From NCBI RefSeq assembly GCF_900102085.1, contig NZ_FMVM01000016.1:1-64000 (forward strand): 64,000 bases of DNA. The letters are read 5' to 3'. This stretch comes from Paenibacillus polysaccharolyticus (GTDB lineage Bacteria; Bacillota; Bacilli; Paenibacillales; Paenibacillaceae). Positions within the stretch are counted from its first letter, which is position 1. Every line of letters starts with the position of its first letter. Below the pieces are notes generated by a model. That model was not told where the DNA came from. It did no database searches and saw only the letters and a list, made by a program, of their open reading frames with translations. Positions 1 to 38,628 of the stretch are shown one piece after another. Made by a program: the position numbers and the translations under genes.

Positions 1-267
1 GAAGAAGCAGGTTTAGAGCATGAGCGGACACCCGTTCGAACACCGAATAAAAATGCTTTTATTGAATCGTTTCATAGTGTTCTGGAACGTGAGTGTTACC
101 AACGACATTGTTTCGAAAGCTACGAAGAAGCCTTTTCCGAGGTAGATCGATACATCCGTTATTACAACAAAGACCGTATTCACGGCAGTCTACACGACTG
201 GTCGCCGACAGATTACCTGCGCCTGGTCAACGAAGGAACCATAGAACCCAAATCCATTACGTTATGA
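1..267 (+). CDS. IS3-family transposase (OrfB), C-terminal 88 residues, cut by window edge
   Basis: An open frame runs from base 1 to TGA at 265-267. It encodes the C-terminal part of a DDE (rve-type) integrase. The segment NAFIESFHSVLERE carries the last catalytic Glu of the DDE triad. It is followed by the usual IS3 C-terminus, with YYNKDRIHGSL and then a Ser-Pro near the end. The protein would cut and join DNA ends to move the element. The N-terminal DD residues and the upstream OrfA lie outside the window, so intactness cannot be judged. The flank is the end of the recG-spoVIF operon, so insertion probably did not break a gene. Confidence 0.9.
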   Translation, partial: EEAGLEHERTPVRTPNKNAFIESFHSVLERECYQRHCFESYEEAFSEVDRYIRYYNKDRIHGSLHDWSPTDYLRLVNEGTIEPKSITL

Positions 268-322
268 TGCGTCAATCTGAGAAAAAGCTAGCTAGTGTCC
301 AATATTAAGGGGTTGAACCGTG
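1..322 (+). mobile_element. Right end of an IS3-family insertion sequence
   Basis: The transposase frame is followed by about 55 bases ending in a GGGGTTGAACC-like segment near 309-319. That resembles the terminal inverted repeats of IS3 elements, whose ends commonly read like TTAGGGGTTCAGACC. The outer boundary is an estimate, because the left end and any target duplication lie outside the window. Confidence 0.55.
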
Positions 323-532
323 GTGATCGTTAGAAAACCAAGCTCTCCGGTGCGCTCTCAGCATCTTAAACATTTCCAATCTAACTTCCTCCACATCTAT
401 CAAAAAAATAACAGAGCCCGATAACCGTCACACATCTCGCATCTCGTACTGTGACGTCACGTCTACACTACTTGTATGTTGCAGTCTTCCCTTCCTATCG
501 GAGGAAAGCAAAAGTGATCCTCTGTCAAAATT

Positions 533-33585: not shown

Positions 33586-34023
33586 TCATCTATGCTTCCG
33601 GCTATTTTTGACCAGCGTCATTCTTCTGGAATGCCTCAGCCAAGAATAATATGACTTCAGATCTCTCAGTTCAATCGTCTCCGACATACGTCCCAAAAAC
33701 GTCACTACAATCATTTTGTGCAGCGGATTGCCTGTAATGTCATATTCTCCTTCAAGCTCGGAAAACTCAGCAACCACCACCAGATCATCGTCAATCAGAT
33801 AAACATCCTGCTCATTGCGGTAATATGGCGTTACCCTGTCCTGCTTCAGACACTCCCATAACCAAGCCGCAATATGGTCATCATCACTACGTGCAGGCTC
33901 AATACGGTCTGCATACCGCATCTTTGCATGATGGGTAATGACGATGTCAGCCACTTTCTTGTCTCCGAGAGCCACAAAAAACGGCTCGTAGGTGCTCCAA
34001 CGTTGCATCACCTTATCACGCAT
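33586..34023 (-). CDS. Unknown protein, 145 residues, possible RelE/DUF4258-like fold
   Basis: I do not recognise this protein with certainty. It starts MRDKVMQRWSTYEPF (ATG 34021-34023, GGAGAG 8 bases upstream; an earlier GTG at 34032 overlaps that site). It contains IVITHHAKMRYADRI, then an acidic DVYLIDDDLVVVAEFSELEGEYD and KMIVVTFLGRM, and ends in a basic SRRMTLVKNSRKHR. The order His-Ala-x-x-Arg-Tyr-x-x-Arg, then beta strands with VVTFLG, recalls DUF4258/RelE-like small nuclease folds. No antitoxin-like partner is adjacent. It stands alone between terminators. Confidence 0.7.
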   Translation of the reverse strand: MRDKVMQRWSTYEPFFVALGDKKVADIVITHHAKMRYADRIEPARSDDDHIAAWLWECLKQDRVTPYYRNEQDVYLIDDDLVVVAEFSELEGEYDITGNPLHKMIVVTFLGRMSETIELRDLKSYYSWLRHSRRMTLVKNSRKHR

Positions 34024-34187
34024 GGGAATCACTCTCCACCAGATAGGACTTTCTATCTATTTATTACCCAATATATTACAACATTAGTCCCGTAACAACA
34101 AGGCGTAAGTGTAACTTTTTTTCGCAAAAATCTATTTATGCTTATTTTAGAAAAGAGCGACCCAGTGGGTCCCTCCTATGTTTCCTG

Positions 34188-34544: not shown

Positions 34545-34982
34545 TTAACTGCATCCACATTTGCCGCCGCTACCACAGCCGCCTTTAGGATTAGGATCGT
34601 TGCTTGGCACTTTAATCGTGCTCGATACAGCAAAAGCAATGGTTTCGGACATCTGAAACAGCATCTCATCCAAAGCTTGCTCAGCCTGTTTGAAACGAGC
34701 TACAGCTTCAAAAGATTCCAGTTCCTTCTCGATCGCTTTCACCTGATCCTTCGCTGCATGAAAGTCAGGATGAAAATGGCCAAAACGCTGTGTTTCTTCA
34801 AAAAGCTCTTTCTTGGCATTTAATCTGCGGATGCCCTCTTGAATCTCAGAACTTGTTTCGACTTGCTGCTTCCAATATAAATAATCCGATACTTCGGCAG
34901 ATTGGTTAATCATGTCGCCCAGTTCATATGCGCCCGTTAACACTTGGGCCATATCGACCGTGTTTATTTCCGCTACGCTCAT
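34545..34982 (-). CDS. ylbF: YlbF family RNase Y specificity factor
   Basis: Helical protein of 145 residues of the YlbF/YmcA family, with YLYWKQQVETSSEIQ and AVARFKQAEQALDEML helices. Its C-terminus GGCGSGGKCGCS holds four cysteines counting CG pairs closely spaced. In B. subtilis YlbF, YmcA and YaaT form the Y-complex, which binds 4Fe-4S clusters and directs RNase Y to mature operon mRNAs; it is needed for competence, sporulation and biofilm. The Cys-rich tail fits the cluster-binding role. It is followed by ylbG, as in Bacillus. Confidence 0.9.
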   Translation of the reverse strand: MSVAEINTVDMAQVLTGAYELGDMINQSAEVSDYLYWKQQVETSSEIQEGIRRLNAKKELFEETQRFGHFHPDFHAAKDQVKAIEKELESFEAVARFKQAEQALDEMLFQMSETIAFAVSSTIKVPSNDPNPKGGCGSGGKCGCS

Positions 34983-35078: not shown

Positions 35079-36863
35079 CTAGACATCATCCGGTAGAATA
35101 AGACGCATTGCATCCCAGTCTTCCGGGGTAAATGTTCGCCATTCCGTACGCGATGCAGTTTCGTGCGGATCAAGGATGCACCATCCTTCCAGTATCCATC
35201 GCTCTTGCTCTTTCACCTGATGCGGAATAAGAACAAACGCATCCTTCCCCTTTTGAATTCCTAGTTTCACTTGCCATTCGATGGCTTGCATTGCAATTTG
35301 GCGCTCCGTCGACAGGTGATACTTTCTCCATTCCCTGTGCCAAGTCTCAGGTACATCAGCCTTCCTCTCGTTCCATGCCGATTTTTCAATCGCATCATAG
35401 TCAGACCCATCCTCATCGTAGTCTACCGTCATATCAGGCGTAAATGGTAATTGCAATAAGCCTTGATTCTCATCGTTGTAAAAGAAAGGGGAATTCCGCG
35501 TCGGTCCTTTGTTTCTCTCCCTTTTGCGCTGTTCAGGCTGATCCGTATTCTCAGCAACCACCAGATTATCTTGCTTATCTTGAATATTCTCCCCGACTGT
35601 TGTCCAGTCCTTTAACGTAACAATTACTTGGTGGGGCAACTCCCCTTGTCCATGTCTCTGTAAAAAATCAGCGATGTCTTCCCACTTCACTCCACTCGCA
35701 GCAGCGATTTTCATTCGCTCTTTGGTCAAACGATAGATTGACATCTGGTCACGTGTGATCCGTTCACAGTATTGTTCGAGTCTCCAGCAGACTTCAGCTG
35801 GCACATCCGGCGGCACCATAACTTCAAAGTCGGGTTGCACATAAAATTTGCCGTATTGTATCACTTCCTGCTCGTGTAGCCTATCTAAATGATGAACATC
35901 CCCATTTGCTCCCACTCTCCTATTCAAGAAATCGGCTGGATCGATCAACCAGCGAAATGCAGCCTCCCCATTCTCATTCTCACCGACTTCACCAAACCCC
36001 CAGCCAGCTAAAGCATGCAACCAGCCTTGAAACCCTGAATTACCTCCTCCGCACAGTACACGGAACCATTGATTCACTCCAGGCGTAAGTACCGCGAGCT
36101 GATAGCGAGAATGTTGCATCTCTGATCCGGACGCCCCATATCGCTCAATGCATATTCTAAACACTTCACCATGCATCTCGAACCAGGACAACTTGATCCA
36201 CTGTTGCAATTTATCTTGCCTGATTTCGAAACCTCTATCTGTTTGTTGCACCAAGTTTAAGCAGAGCAGTAAATCCAGCAAAATAACTACATGCACCGGG
36301 TATAATGCCTTATGATCATACGCAATCTCCAACGGTTCGAAATCCTCTGGAGACATGATCGTTAATGTGCTTAACTTTTGTACCGTTCTCTTATGTATTG
36401 TACCTTTTCCAGTGACAGGCAGACCTTCTCTATCAATCCAAGCAAGAAGATGAAGTAATTCTCCTGCGATATGCGGTTTTCCTTCCTTAATGACACGCCT
36501 GACAGAACCGACCATCGGTTCAACAATGCGGTCCACGCGACTTATATACGATAAGGTCAATGTTGCCAGATGACATTCGGGGATATGAAAAGAGCATTCT
36601 CCCCAGCTTTTATGTACGGATTTAATCCATTGTTTACGGCGCAACATGGCAAAAGCAAGCTTCGCTTCAGCTCCACTTAATCCTTCCTTAGCCCAAACCT
36701 CCGAAGGCAGAAGAGAAGAGAACGTTTGACCCGCATATTTGTGAAAAAGAGCACCAAGCACCCGTTGCTCCGCTGACGTAAGTGCAGACCAAAGTGCCAG
36801 ACCAGCCAACTTTTTCGATTTCATCGATTTCTCCACTTCAAACTCCAGACCAGACATCAGCAT
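35079..36863 (-). CDS. XPB-helicase partner protein (helicase-associated domain protein)
   Basis: Protein of 594 residues with no catalytic motif that I recognise. It has winged-helix-like segments near the N-terminus (ALTSAEQRVLGALFHKY). A C-terminal part resembles the helicase-associated N-terminal domain of XPB/Ssl2 proteins (FYVQPDFEVMVPPDVP, then YRLTKERMKIAAASGVKWEDI). An acidic/basic linker (about 440-510) and a short C-terminal domain follow. Start ATG at 36861-36863 with AAGGG upstream, 22 bases after the helicase stop; other in-frame starts overlap the helicase gene. Actinobacteria have a similar pair (ERCC3/XPB beside a long helicase-associated protein, Rv0861c-Rv0862c), which I recall rather than have checked. 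It is likely a structural or DNA-binding partner of the helicase. Confidence 0.8.
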   Translation of the reverse strand: MLMSGLEFEVEKSMKSKKLAGLALWSALTSAEQRVLGALFHKYAGQTFSSLLPSEVWAKEGLSGAEAKLAFAMLRRKQWIKSVHKSWGECSFHIPECHLATLTLSYISRVDRIVEPMVGSVRRVIKEGKPHIAGELLHLLAWIDREGLPVTGKGTIHKRTVQKLSTLTIMSPEDFEPLEIAYDHKALYPVHVVILLDLLLCLNLVQQTDRGFEIRQDKLQQWIKLSWFEMHGEVFRICIERYGASGSEMQHSRYQLAVLTPGVNQWFRVLCGGGNSGFQGWLHALAGWGFGEVGENENGEAAFRWLIDPADFLNRRVGANGDVHHLDRLHEQEVIQYGKFYVQPDFEVMVPPDVPAEVCWRLEQYCERITRDQMSIYRLTKERMKIAAASGVKWEDIADFLQRHGQGELPHQVIVTLKDWTTVGENIQDKQDNLVVAENTDQPEQRKRERNKGPTRNSPFFYNDENQGLLQLPFTPDMTVDYDEDGSDYDAIEKSAWNERKADVPETWHREWRKYHLSTERQIAMQAIEWQVKLGIQKGKDAFVLIPHQVKEQERWILEGWCILDPHETASRTEWRTFTPEDWDAMRLILPDDV

Positions 36864-36885
36864 TTCACTTCCCTTCTGCAACATG

Positions 36886-38628
36886 TTAATGAACCTTGTC
36901 CTGCTCATGCACAATCGCATATTCGTAACCCTGCTCTACCAAAAACATTTGGCGATTTAACGCAAATTCCTGTTCCTTGCTATTTTCGGAAACCAGTGCA
37001 TAGAAATAAGCTTTGTTCTCACCTGCTTTGGGGCGCAGAATCCGTCCAAGTCGCTGGGCTTCTTCTTGCCTTGAACCAAAACTACCAGAGATTTCGAGGG
37101 CCACCGCAGCATCCGGCAAGTCAACGGCAAAATTGGCAACCTTTGATACAACAATCGTACGAATTTCGCCCTTTCTAAAAGCAGAAAACCAGTGAATACG
37201 TTCCTGTTGTGGCATCGATCCAGAGATTAGAGGTGCATCAATTTCCCGGGCAATCATCTCAAGCTGATCAAGGTACTGCCCAATGACAAGTGTCGGTAGA
37301 TTTTGATGTCGTTCCAGTAAACGCTTTACAACCTTTAATTTTGCCGGATTTTCAGCTGCCAGGCGAAATTGATGTTTACCCTCGGCCTGCACATAAGTTG
37401 ATCTTAATTCAGGAGACAAGGGCACCCTCACTTCCTGACACTTCACTTCTGCAATCCAGCCTTGCTGCTCCAGCTCTTTCCATGGCATATCATATAATTT
37501 GGGGCCGATCAACGAGAACACATCCTGTTCACATCCATCTTCACGAACAAGCGTGGCGGTCAAACCTAGACGACGAGTAGCCTGAATGTCTGCCGTAGCC
37601 CGAAACACCGGAGCAGGCAACAAATGCACTTCATCATAGATGATCAGCCCCCACTTTCTCTCTTGTAAAAGATGAATGTGAGTGAAATCGGCAGCTTTAG
37701 ATTTTCGATGTGTCAAAATTTGATACGTTGCCACCGTCACCGGTTTGACCTGCTTTTTCTGCCCCGAATACTCTCCGATCTGTTCCGCATTTATCGTTGT
37801 TTTATCCTGAATTTCCTGTATCCACTGCCGGACAGACGTTGTATTGGACGTTAGAATAAGACATTCACATTGCAACCGTTCCAGCACAGCCATGCCAATA
37901 ATCGTTTTGCCTGCTCCGCAGGGAAGTACCAGTAGTCCGCTACCGCCGACGCCTTCACCATCTTGAAAAGCGTCCACTGCCTTCTGCTGATAAGGTCGCA
38001 GCGCAAATGTAGCTCTTTTTCCCTCACCGCATCTACTAGACATACTAGTCGTTGATTCAGTAATATTAGGCCGCCAGCCAAATGAAAGTTCGCTCCCTTT
38101 CCGATAACCGGCATAATCCAATACAGGGTAACCAAGACGTGTCAGTTCCCTCTTCAATAAACCACGCTTTTCTCCCGATAACACAAGCTCGTTCACGCTC
38201 GTTCGTTCCATACGGAAAGCAGATATCGATTTGATGTCGCTCAAATCATCTAACAATTGCTCGTCTTCACAAGTCAGGCGCATTTTAGAATGATCCGGCT
38301 CAGCATGTAACTTTAATTTGCCGTATTGCTCCATTATTCTGCACACATCCTGAGTGAGAGCCGCAGGCACATTCCAGCGTGACACCTTCTCAAGACACTT
38401 GATCACCCATTCTGAATTCCAGCCTAGTGCTGCCGCATTCCACAGCGACAACGGGGTGATTCGGTAGGTATGAAACGTTGCAGGTGTCTTTACGAGTTCC
38501 GCGTACATACTGAGCTCCGCTCTGGCTGTTTCAAACTCGGGATGCCCCACTTCGAGCAATACTGTGAAATCACGCTGTACAATGCAAGCTCCCTGCGGAT
38601 TGAACATCTCCATCTTTCCCACATCCAT
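36886..38628 (-). CDS. XPB/ERCC3-type DNA helicase
   Basis: SF2 helicase of 580 residues. An N-terminal damage-recognition-like region (about 1-200) precedes the motor. Motifs are Walker A PCGAGKT (236-242), DEVH box (332-335) and, directly after TATLV, the RED motif (Arg-Glu-Asp 362-364) that marks XPB proteins. Motif VI is QEEAQRLGRILRP. XPB opens DNA in eukaryotic TFIIH and archaeal repair; bacterial XPB unwinds DNA in vitro, but its cell role is not settled. The start may instead be the ATG at residue 6 (38611-38613). It is followed at 22 bases by a dedicated partner gene. Confidence 0.92.
   Translation of the reverse strand: MDVGKMEMFNPQGACIVQRDFTVLLEVGHPEFETARAELSMYAELVKTPATFHTYRITPLSLWNAAALGWNSEWVIKCLEKVSRWNVPAALTQDVCRIMEQYGKLKLHAEPDHSKMRLTCEDEQLLDDLSDIKSISAFRMERTSVNELVLSGEKRGLLKRELTRLGYPVLDYAGYRKGSELSFGWRPNITESTTSMSSRCGEGKRATFALRPYQQKAVDAFQDGEGVGGSGLLVLPCGAGKTIIGMAVLERLQCECLILTSNTTSVRQWIQEIQDKTTINAEQIGEYSGQKKQVKPVTVATYQILTHRKSKAADFTHIHLLQERKWGLIIYDEVHLLPAPVFRATADIQATRRLGLTATLVREDGCEQDVFSLIGPKLYDMPWKELEQQGWIAEVKCQEVRVPLSPELRSTYVQAEGKHQFRLAAENPAKLKVVKRLLERHQNLPTLVIGQYLDQLEMIAREIDAPLISGSMPQQERIHWFSAFRKGEIRTIVVSKVANFAVDLPDAAVALEISGSFGSRQEEAQRLGRILRPKAGENKAYFYALVSENSKEQEFALNRQMFLVEQGYEYAIVHEQDKVH

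Follow-up and report, generated by a model that had tools for sequence, protein, structure and literature searches.

A locus of Paenibacillus polysaccharolyticus raises the question of which protein XPB works with in bacteria. The window analysed here, a 64,000-nucleotide stretch of contig NZ_FMVM01000016.1 to which all coordinates refer, carries a gene for an XPB/ERCC3-type helicase and, directly behind it, a gene for a 594-residue partner protein. The XPB of Mycobacterium tuberculosis (presumably Rv0861c) is likewise a bacterial XPB and has been studied in vitro. No partner is identified in the accessible part of that report, unlike at the present locus, and the authors did not commit themselves on whether XPB acts together with other proteins (PMC3353954). 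In the accessible part of a review from March 2026, the function of XPB is called more elusive in archaea and bacteria, and archaea are described as having no TFIIH-like assembly (PMC13024598). We argue here that the partner is quite probably the bacterial counterpart of p52/Tfb2 (GTF2H4), a subunit of transcription factor IIH (TFIIH), that it most likely docks XPB by pairing its clutch domain with the XPB N-terminal domain (NTD), and that it probably stimulates the XPB translocase.

The XPB helicase and its downstream partner

The sequence-only reading of this DNA had proposed a pair made up of an XPB helicase with Walker A, DEVH and RED motifs and, 22 bases on, a partner of 594 residues. Both genes are real and lie on the minus strand, with the intergenic gap of 22 bases. 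The features on which the argument turns are as follows.

36886..38628, minus strand: XPB/ERCC3-type superfamily 2 (SF2) helicase, 580 residues (NF045503, TIGR00603, invariant DEVH and RED)
38200..38583, minus strand: N-terminal domain of XPB, PF13625, residues 16-143 (E 3.2e-30), a homologue of the NTD through which human XPB touches the p52 clutch
35079..36863, minus strand: p52-like partner, 594 residues (PF13625, partner profiles, predicted fold, clutch hidden Markov model)
35874..36815, minus strand: winged-helix array of the partner, residues ~17-330 (predicted structure; Tfb2 match of the homologue L108)
35583..35864, minus strand: clutch domain of the partner, residues 334-427 (PF13625, VIA alignment to the XPB NTD, comparison of hidden Markov models)

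Against the NCBIfam equivalog NF045503, whose cut-off is 610, the helicase reaches 832.6 bits, and against TIGR00603 it reaches 362.9 bits (cut-off 328.7). In a 45-sequence alignment DEVH (332-335) and RED (362-364) are invariant, as are six of the seven positions of the Walker A motif PCGAGKT (236-242). PF13625 occupies residues 16-143 of this XPB with 105.2 bits. The nearest named XPB, 85% identical among the best 80 of 589 stretches, is that of Paenibacillus barcinonensis. Three short XPBs (L107, L110 and L112; 487-495 residues), compared by eye, lack the segment between the NTD and the helicase core and keep an NTD-like start, in keeping with an NTD that is there for the partner. XPB also matches eight helicase-containing PADLOC models, the best being PbeA (4.3e-27, over part of the profile only). 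A defence-system reading was rejected, since the partner matches no PADLOC family at E ≤ 0.1.

The start of the partner gene calls for a comment. Mechanical calling places it at 36920, which gives a 613-residue open reading frame (ORF) that overlaps XPB; we prefer the ATG at 36863, and with it the 594-residue form, because AAGGGA lies just upstream and the starts of near homologues are close by.

Another genome of the class (G179) encodes two XPBs. The second is diverged, sharing 29% identity with the XPB studied here, and has its own partner-like neighbour of 382 residues (L111:5989..8804).

Likeness of the partner to p52/Tfb2

Human p52 recruits XPB to TFIIH; its clutch (306-399) has the fold of the XPB NTD, and in human TFIIH the two domains form a pseudo-symmetric dimer (PMC6422496, accessible part). 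Because of this shared fold, p52 is the obvious candidate for the partner. The sole Pfam match of the partner at E ≤ 1 is PF13625 (residues 341-421, 40.1 bits, cut-off 34.2), the same domain that forms the N-terminus of XPB. It accounts for the "helicase-associated segments" that had been seen in the partner from its sequence, and the companion remark that the partner has no motor or nuclease motif agrees with scans of Pfam, NCBIfam-type and PADLOC models, which found no such family in it.

A profile search of the partner had been proposed as a check, and it ranks human p52 above XPB in the PDB. With a profile of 45 homologues from the class, human p52 is the top match (E 1.5e-7, chain 214-458; XPB 1.3e-6). 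A wider profile of 41 sequences, comprising the partner and named homologues with archaea included, again puts human p52 first (E 7.6e-11), followed by Chaetomium p52 (2e-10), yeast TFB2 (5.4e-7) and XPB (1.5e-5). The Chaetomium match already begins at profile position 211, a good way before the clutch. We also compared hidden Markov models (HMMs) of the two homologous domains. The partner-clutch HMM, built from bacteria only, gives 41.4 bits to human p52, 36.5 to Chaetomium p52, 34.0 to a yeast TFB2 fragment and 31.2 to human XPB, whereas the bacterial XPB-NTD HMM gives 67.9 bits to human XPB and 11-15 to the p52 sequences. Human p52 thus scores 41 bits with the one and 14 with the other, about 27 bits apart, and by sequence the partner clutch is p52-type, not XPB-type. 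In a tree of 76 rows and 107 columns, partners and p52 stand on one side of a branch and all XPB N-termini on the other (support 100/99.6).

Matches to the Pfam family Tfb2 (PF03849) occur among the homologues, in 11 of the 45 from the class at E ≤ 1 and in four of the 41 wider ones at E ≤ 0.01. The homologue L080 (484 residues) reaches 35.0 bits (cut-off 34.5). In L108 (463 residues), residues 44-429 align with Tfb2 positions 17-354 of 358 (31.9 bits, E 8.7e-8), a match that takes in winged helices and clutch together. Judged by these scores, some bacterial homologues are at the edge of the Tfb2 family. The partner studied here is called p52-like and is not filed as a Tfb2 member, because it does not reach the PF03849 gathering score.

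The AlphaFold2 (AF2) model of the partner has a mean predicted local distance difference test (pLDDT) score of 85 and a predicted template modelling (pTM) score of 0.82. Foldseek returned 19 PDB chains at E ≤ 0.001, all from entries whose titles name TFIIH, p52, excision-repair or RNA polymerase II pre-initiation complexes; those whose molecule names are known (8ebt_D, 6trs_A and 7o4i_2) are p52/TFB2. Lower ranks hold XPB N-terminal domains (~87 residues, root-mean-square deviation (rmsd) ~1.5), RPC62 of RNA polymerase III (at low probability) and WYL proteins. In VIA alignments, the XPB NTD gave Z 14.5 over 91 residues (model 333-427, rmsd 2.6) and the p52 N-terminal half, 6tru_B, Z 8.3 over 152 residues. 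For chain D of 8ebu, 324 residues could be aligned within model 17..431, with Z 13.6 and an rmsd of 14.1; other winged-helix proteins, too, reach Z 8-9 at model residues ~20-110. The predicted layout is that of winged helices, clutch, a low-confidence linker and a WYL-like domain. For the N-terminal array in p52 order, the predicted fold and the Tfb2 match of L108 agree, and a winged-helix-only profile does not.

Archaeal XPB works with the nuclease Bax1 (PMC7672443, accessible part), which makes it conceivable that the partner is a diverged Bax1-type protein and the pair a helicase-nuclease. Like the present pair, XPB-Bax1 joins XPB to a dedicated partner protein, but there the partner has nuclease function and attaches to the ThM and HD2 regions of XPB (PMC13024598, accessible part). 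The P. polysaccharolyticus partner matches no nuclease family and carries a clutch, its XPB has an NTD, and its leading structural matches are p52 and the XPB NTD. DUF790 (PF05626), which we take to be the Bax1 family, has no match in the partner and exceeds its cut-off in none of 200 genomes of the class (one weak partial match falls below it). On these grounds a Bax1 or nuclease identity was rejected, and we regard it as scarcely credible. The sequence-only reading had also thought of a distinct complex; this part of it was not supported, as the partner resembles TFIIH p52 and the closest parallel is XPB-p52 of TFIIH, not XPB-Bax1.

The p52 reading has a number of results to contend with. 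The tree with p52 on the XPB N-terminus side is not rejected (approximately unbiased (AU) test, p 0.315; only 107 columns), and long branches meet in it, including a long-branch partner row next to the p52 rows. PF03849 finds no match in the study partner or elsewhere in its genome, and among 40 homologues and relatives scanned singly it passes its cut-off in one only, 11 more matching below it. The winged-helix-only profile (~residues 1-330, 35 homologues) gave no p52 in the PDB; eight chains appeared at E ≤ 10, the best being CodY (0.02). An end like the p8-binding end of p52 is not recognised in the study partner, p8/Tfb5 was not found in its genome at E ≤ 10, and TFB5 matches of the profiles are weak (E 0.11 with the class profile, 0.68 with the wider one). 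Whole-chain fits to p52 have an rmsd of 11.5-19.7 Å with query TM-scores of 0.17-0.23 in Foldseek, and about 14 Å at best in VIA, so domain orientations differ or are unreliable. Two tests of the interface belong here as well. XPB and partner of P. xylanilyticus, joined into one read-through chain, were modelled with pTM 0.52 and long low-confidence stretches in the helicase core, and the model is uninformative on an interface; its alignment was thin, six of 22 rows covering XPB, and pLDDT is mostly below 50 at residues ~160-240 and ~290-370. Calculated from 111 pairs (effective number 88.7), mutual information is no higher for NTD-clutch than for other domain pairs.

These results bear on whether the partner might have taken an XPB-NTD-type domain independently onto a generic scaffold of winged helices and WYL domain, binding XPB all the same, its likeness to p52 being convergent. 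Such convergence would suit the commonness of winged helices, a winged-helix-only profile without p52, the AU result and the missing Tfb2 match of the study partner, but it sits badly with a clutch that is specifically p52-type by ~27 bits for human p52, with a Chaetomium p52 match that starts at position 211, well before the clutch, with the nearly end-to-end Tfb2 match of L108 and with the lead of TFIIH-type complex chains in the Foldseek ranking; we consider it unlikely. As far as sequence goes, the evidence for a p52-type clutch is good at the level of the domain, while the deep branching is not settled. Compared with p52/Tfb2 as a whole, the partner has in its predicted fold the winged-helix array and then the XPB-NTD-homologous clutch in the same order, its profiles find p52 first in the PDB, and it too co-occurs with an NTD-bearing XPB. 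It differs in that sequence similarity of the study partner is confined to the clutch, in its WYL-like domain in place of a recognised p8-binding C-terminal domain, and in that no other TFIIH subunit was shown.

Co-occurrence of the partner with XPB

Among the 200 genomes of the class, 94 are positive for XPB: 88 exceed the NF045503 cut-off and six have shorter or diverged forms (435.6 to 584.1 bits). A partner match that reaches the clutch was present, among the matches listed, in 101 of the 200 genomes, and these include all 94 with XPB (Fisher p 2.7e-49, kinship ignored). Eight further genomes, without XPB, have partner-profile matches that are not among the listed clutch-reaching ones; in one of them (G030) the match spans positions 1-350. 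In all seven of the 101 genomes that lack XPB, the relative lies upstream of a gene of 189-192 residues, presumably ypiB-like; one such relative that was scanned scores 32.5 bits with PF13625, just under the cut-off.

We fetched 80 of 95 strong XPB places in the class; the other 15 are the study locus itself and 14 that were left out, 12 of them from represented genera. One fetched locus (L102) was dropped as it has no closed XPB ORF and the study locus was added, which gives 80 class loci. The partner adjoins XPB in 61 of them, always downstream and always on the same strand (61/61); for the remaining 19 loci it is encoded at another place in the genome. Gaps between the linked genes run from -454 to +54 bases in 60 pairs, and one, in a seemingly split gene, is 688; when the first start codon is taken, 16 of the 61 pairs overlap by exactly 4 bases. 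Named XPB loci were analysed as well, limited to the 80 best among 589 confirmed stretches. A partner homologue is present in 77 of these 80 genomes, within the fetched stretch in 57 (E < 0.001); after removal of XPB self-matches, the remaining 23 comprise 20 with a homologue elsewhere and three metagenome assemblies without one (one of them has a match to a 90-residue fragment only). The pair that had been proposed from the sequence is conserved and dedicated, with near-obligate co-occurrence, and absence of the partner beside XPB in most relatives, which had been named in advance as a result that would speak against it, is not what the class loci give.

Among the named loci the partner lies downstream of XPB in members of Paenibacillaceae, Planctomycetes, Spirochaetes and Chloroflexi. 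An actinobacterial two-gene pair, which the sequence-only reading had mentioned, exists in seven of seven actinobacterial loci, with the partner upstream and not downstream. Two Methanosarcinales have a partner homologue upstream that overlaps XPB, and three Thorarchaeota have one 1.7-3.6 kilobases (kb) downstream of XPB. Of 14 control genomes, Corynebacterium glutamicum alone gave a PF13625 match, and DUF790 was confined to four others.

Some loci show unusual arrangements. Two partner homologues stand in tandem after XPB in two Anaerolineae (L141:4911..9554 and L164:4763..9494). In two Hydrogenedentota (L144:3337..6513 and L152:7665..10808) an AddB-like protein with a PD-(D/E)XK nuclease domain follows 2 bases after XPB, and a third such locus (L146) has a long ORF at that position. 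Three Spirochaete loci (L130:2041..3270, L139:7737..8909 and L142:7749..8966) have a gene of 390-409 residues that overlaps the end of XPB by 1-4 bases; scans of two of the three gave no convincing Pfam family, and in those genomes a p52-like partner match lies elsewhere.

The C-terminal domain, the ylbF neighbour and a proposed mechanism

Three further features complete the partner and its surroundings.

35406..35546, minus strand: linker of the partner, residues ~440-486, low confidence and probably disordered (model pLDDT)
35082..35405, minus strand: C-terminal WYL-like domain of the partner, residues 487-594, core 516-591 (fold match only)
34545..34982, minus strand: Com_YlbF (RicF-like) gene, 145 residues, the conserved next gene after XPB and partner (PF06133, 70 bits)

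Model residues 441-490 have a pLDDT of 33-54 in blocks of ten residues. Beyond them the model (~516-591) aligns by VIA with DriD (Z 8.9), PafBC (Z 8.9) and BrxR (Z 8.6), at rmsd 1.9-2.3 over 69-70 residues, and CapW, which we take to be a WYL-domain protein, is among its Foldseek matches. The structures of DriD and CapW were solved with bound single-stranded DNA, according to their entry titles. PF13280 (WYL) has no match in the study partner, and a WYL sequence match sought in 22 family members was found in none; a Micromonospora homologue (L187) scores 27.9 bits (cut-off 21.8) and another homologue (L083) 13.4 bits. Profile matches of the C-terminal part to designed proteins were taken as spurious. 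We call the domain WYL-like from its predicted fold. With DriD, PafBC and BrxR it would share the fold of ~70 C-terminal residues, and it differs from them in ending a p52-like chain and in having no sequence match.

Linked partners in the class range from 382 to 725 residues, and in the scanned ones of 461-484 residues the chain stops shortly past the clutch. A ylbF-like gene lies downstream in 38 of the 61 linked loci, behind partners of 542-725 residues and a split 421-residue piece. The other 23 loci have none; their partners are 22 of 382-541 residues and that of L104, a 630-residue frame in heavy overlap with XPB, and at four of these loci no more than ~0.9-1.2 kb of sequence remained. 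The gene also follows all 22 fetched long partners of Bacilli that are unlinked, XPB being elsewhere. This association of long partner and ylbF is confounded by kinship. In Caldalkalibacillus mannanilyticus (L145:7710..9658) the partner occupies two ORFs (212 and 421 residues) ~50 bases apart and is split or frameshifted.

These observations invite a different account, in which the partner is mainly a WYL-type regulator of transcription or RNA processing that acts with the neighbouring RicF-like protein, its link to XPB being secondary. It would draw on the WYL-like C-terminal fold, with a sequence match in one actinobacterial homologue, on the ylbF gene behind 22 of 22 unlinked long partners, and on relatives of the N-terminal part that have no clutch match, found in the P. 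polysaccharolyticus genome and in at least one XPB-less genome (G030). Yet 22 of 22 short partners (382-541 residues) stand beside XPB with no ylbF downstream, those of 461-484 residues that were scanned stop soon after the clutch, the partner accompanies XPB in 94 of 94 genomes and the seven XPB-less genomes hold their partner-like match at another type of locus, and linkage to XPB extends to Planctomycetes, Spirochaetes, Actinobacteria and archaea. We find this account rather improbable and retain the p52-like reading.

If the partner is a p52 counterpart, its clutch would pair with the homologous N-terminal domain of XPB, and this pairing would dock the XPB motor onto the winged-helix scaffold. 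The partner would then probably stimulate and position the DNA translocase of XPB. In the long form, the C-terminal WYL-like domain would probably serve as an added regulatory sensor, whose ligand may be single-stranded DNA. Together the two proteins would open or remodel DNA in repair or in work linked to transcription.

A broader picture is offered more tentatively, as one we rather doubt than hold. The XPB-p52 docking unit could be an ancient prokaryotic module, in which nearly every NTD-bearing XPB of bacteria and some archaea has a p52-like subunit and around which eukaryotes later built TFIIH; many of the bacterial subunits could have gained a WYL sensor, perhaps of single-stranded DNA, to activate the motor where DNA is damaged or opened, with a link to the RNA-processing protein RicF in Bacilli. 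The XPB-p52 couple may be older than complex cells. Our searches of the open-licence literature turned up no bacterial p52, an earlier report elsewhere being possible. The accessible parts of a 2026 review (PMC13024598) and of a p52/Tfb2 mutagenesis paper (PMC9557730) do not mention one, and in that of the latter "bacteria", "archaea" and "prokaryot" do not occur. Should the partner indeed be p52-like, work on bacterial XPB may have left out its natural partner; the biochemistry of XPB-p52 could then be carried out in a two-protein bacterial system, and prokaryotic genomes could offer a way to the order of TFIIH assembly.

A few minor observations concern the neighbourhood. On another contig of the same genome (C22; L193:4546..5664) there is a 372-residue protein homologous to the N-terminal part of the partner and without a Pfam match; the genes near it are presumably qcr-like. 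That genome, of 6.5 Mb, encodes four Com_YlbF proteins. The one at the study locus ends in CGSGGKCGC, with a cysteine spacing that agrees with three out of four cysteines in the RicF tail as described for Bacillus Ric proteins in the accessible part of PMC6751060. The gene that follows it (33586..34032) encodes 148 residues with no Pfam or NCBIfam family at E ≤ 1 and has homologues in 29 other fetched loci.

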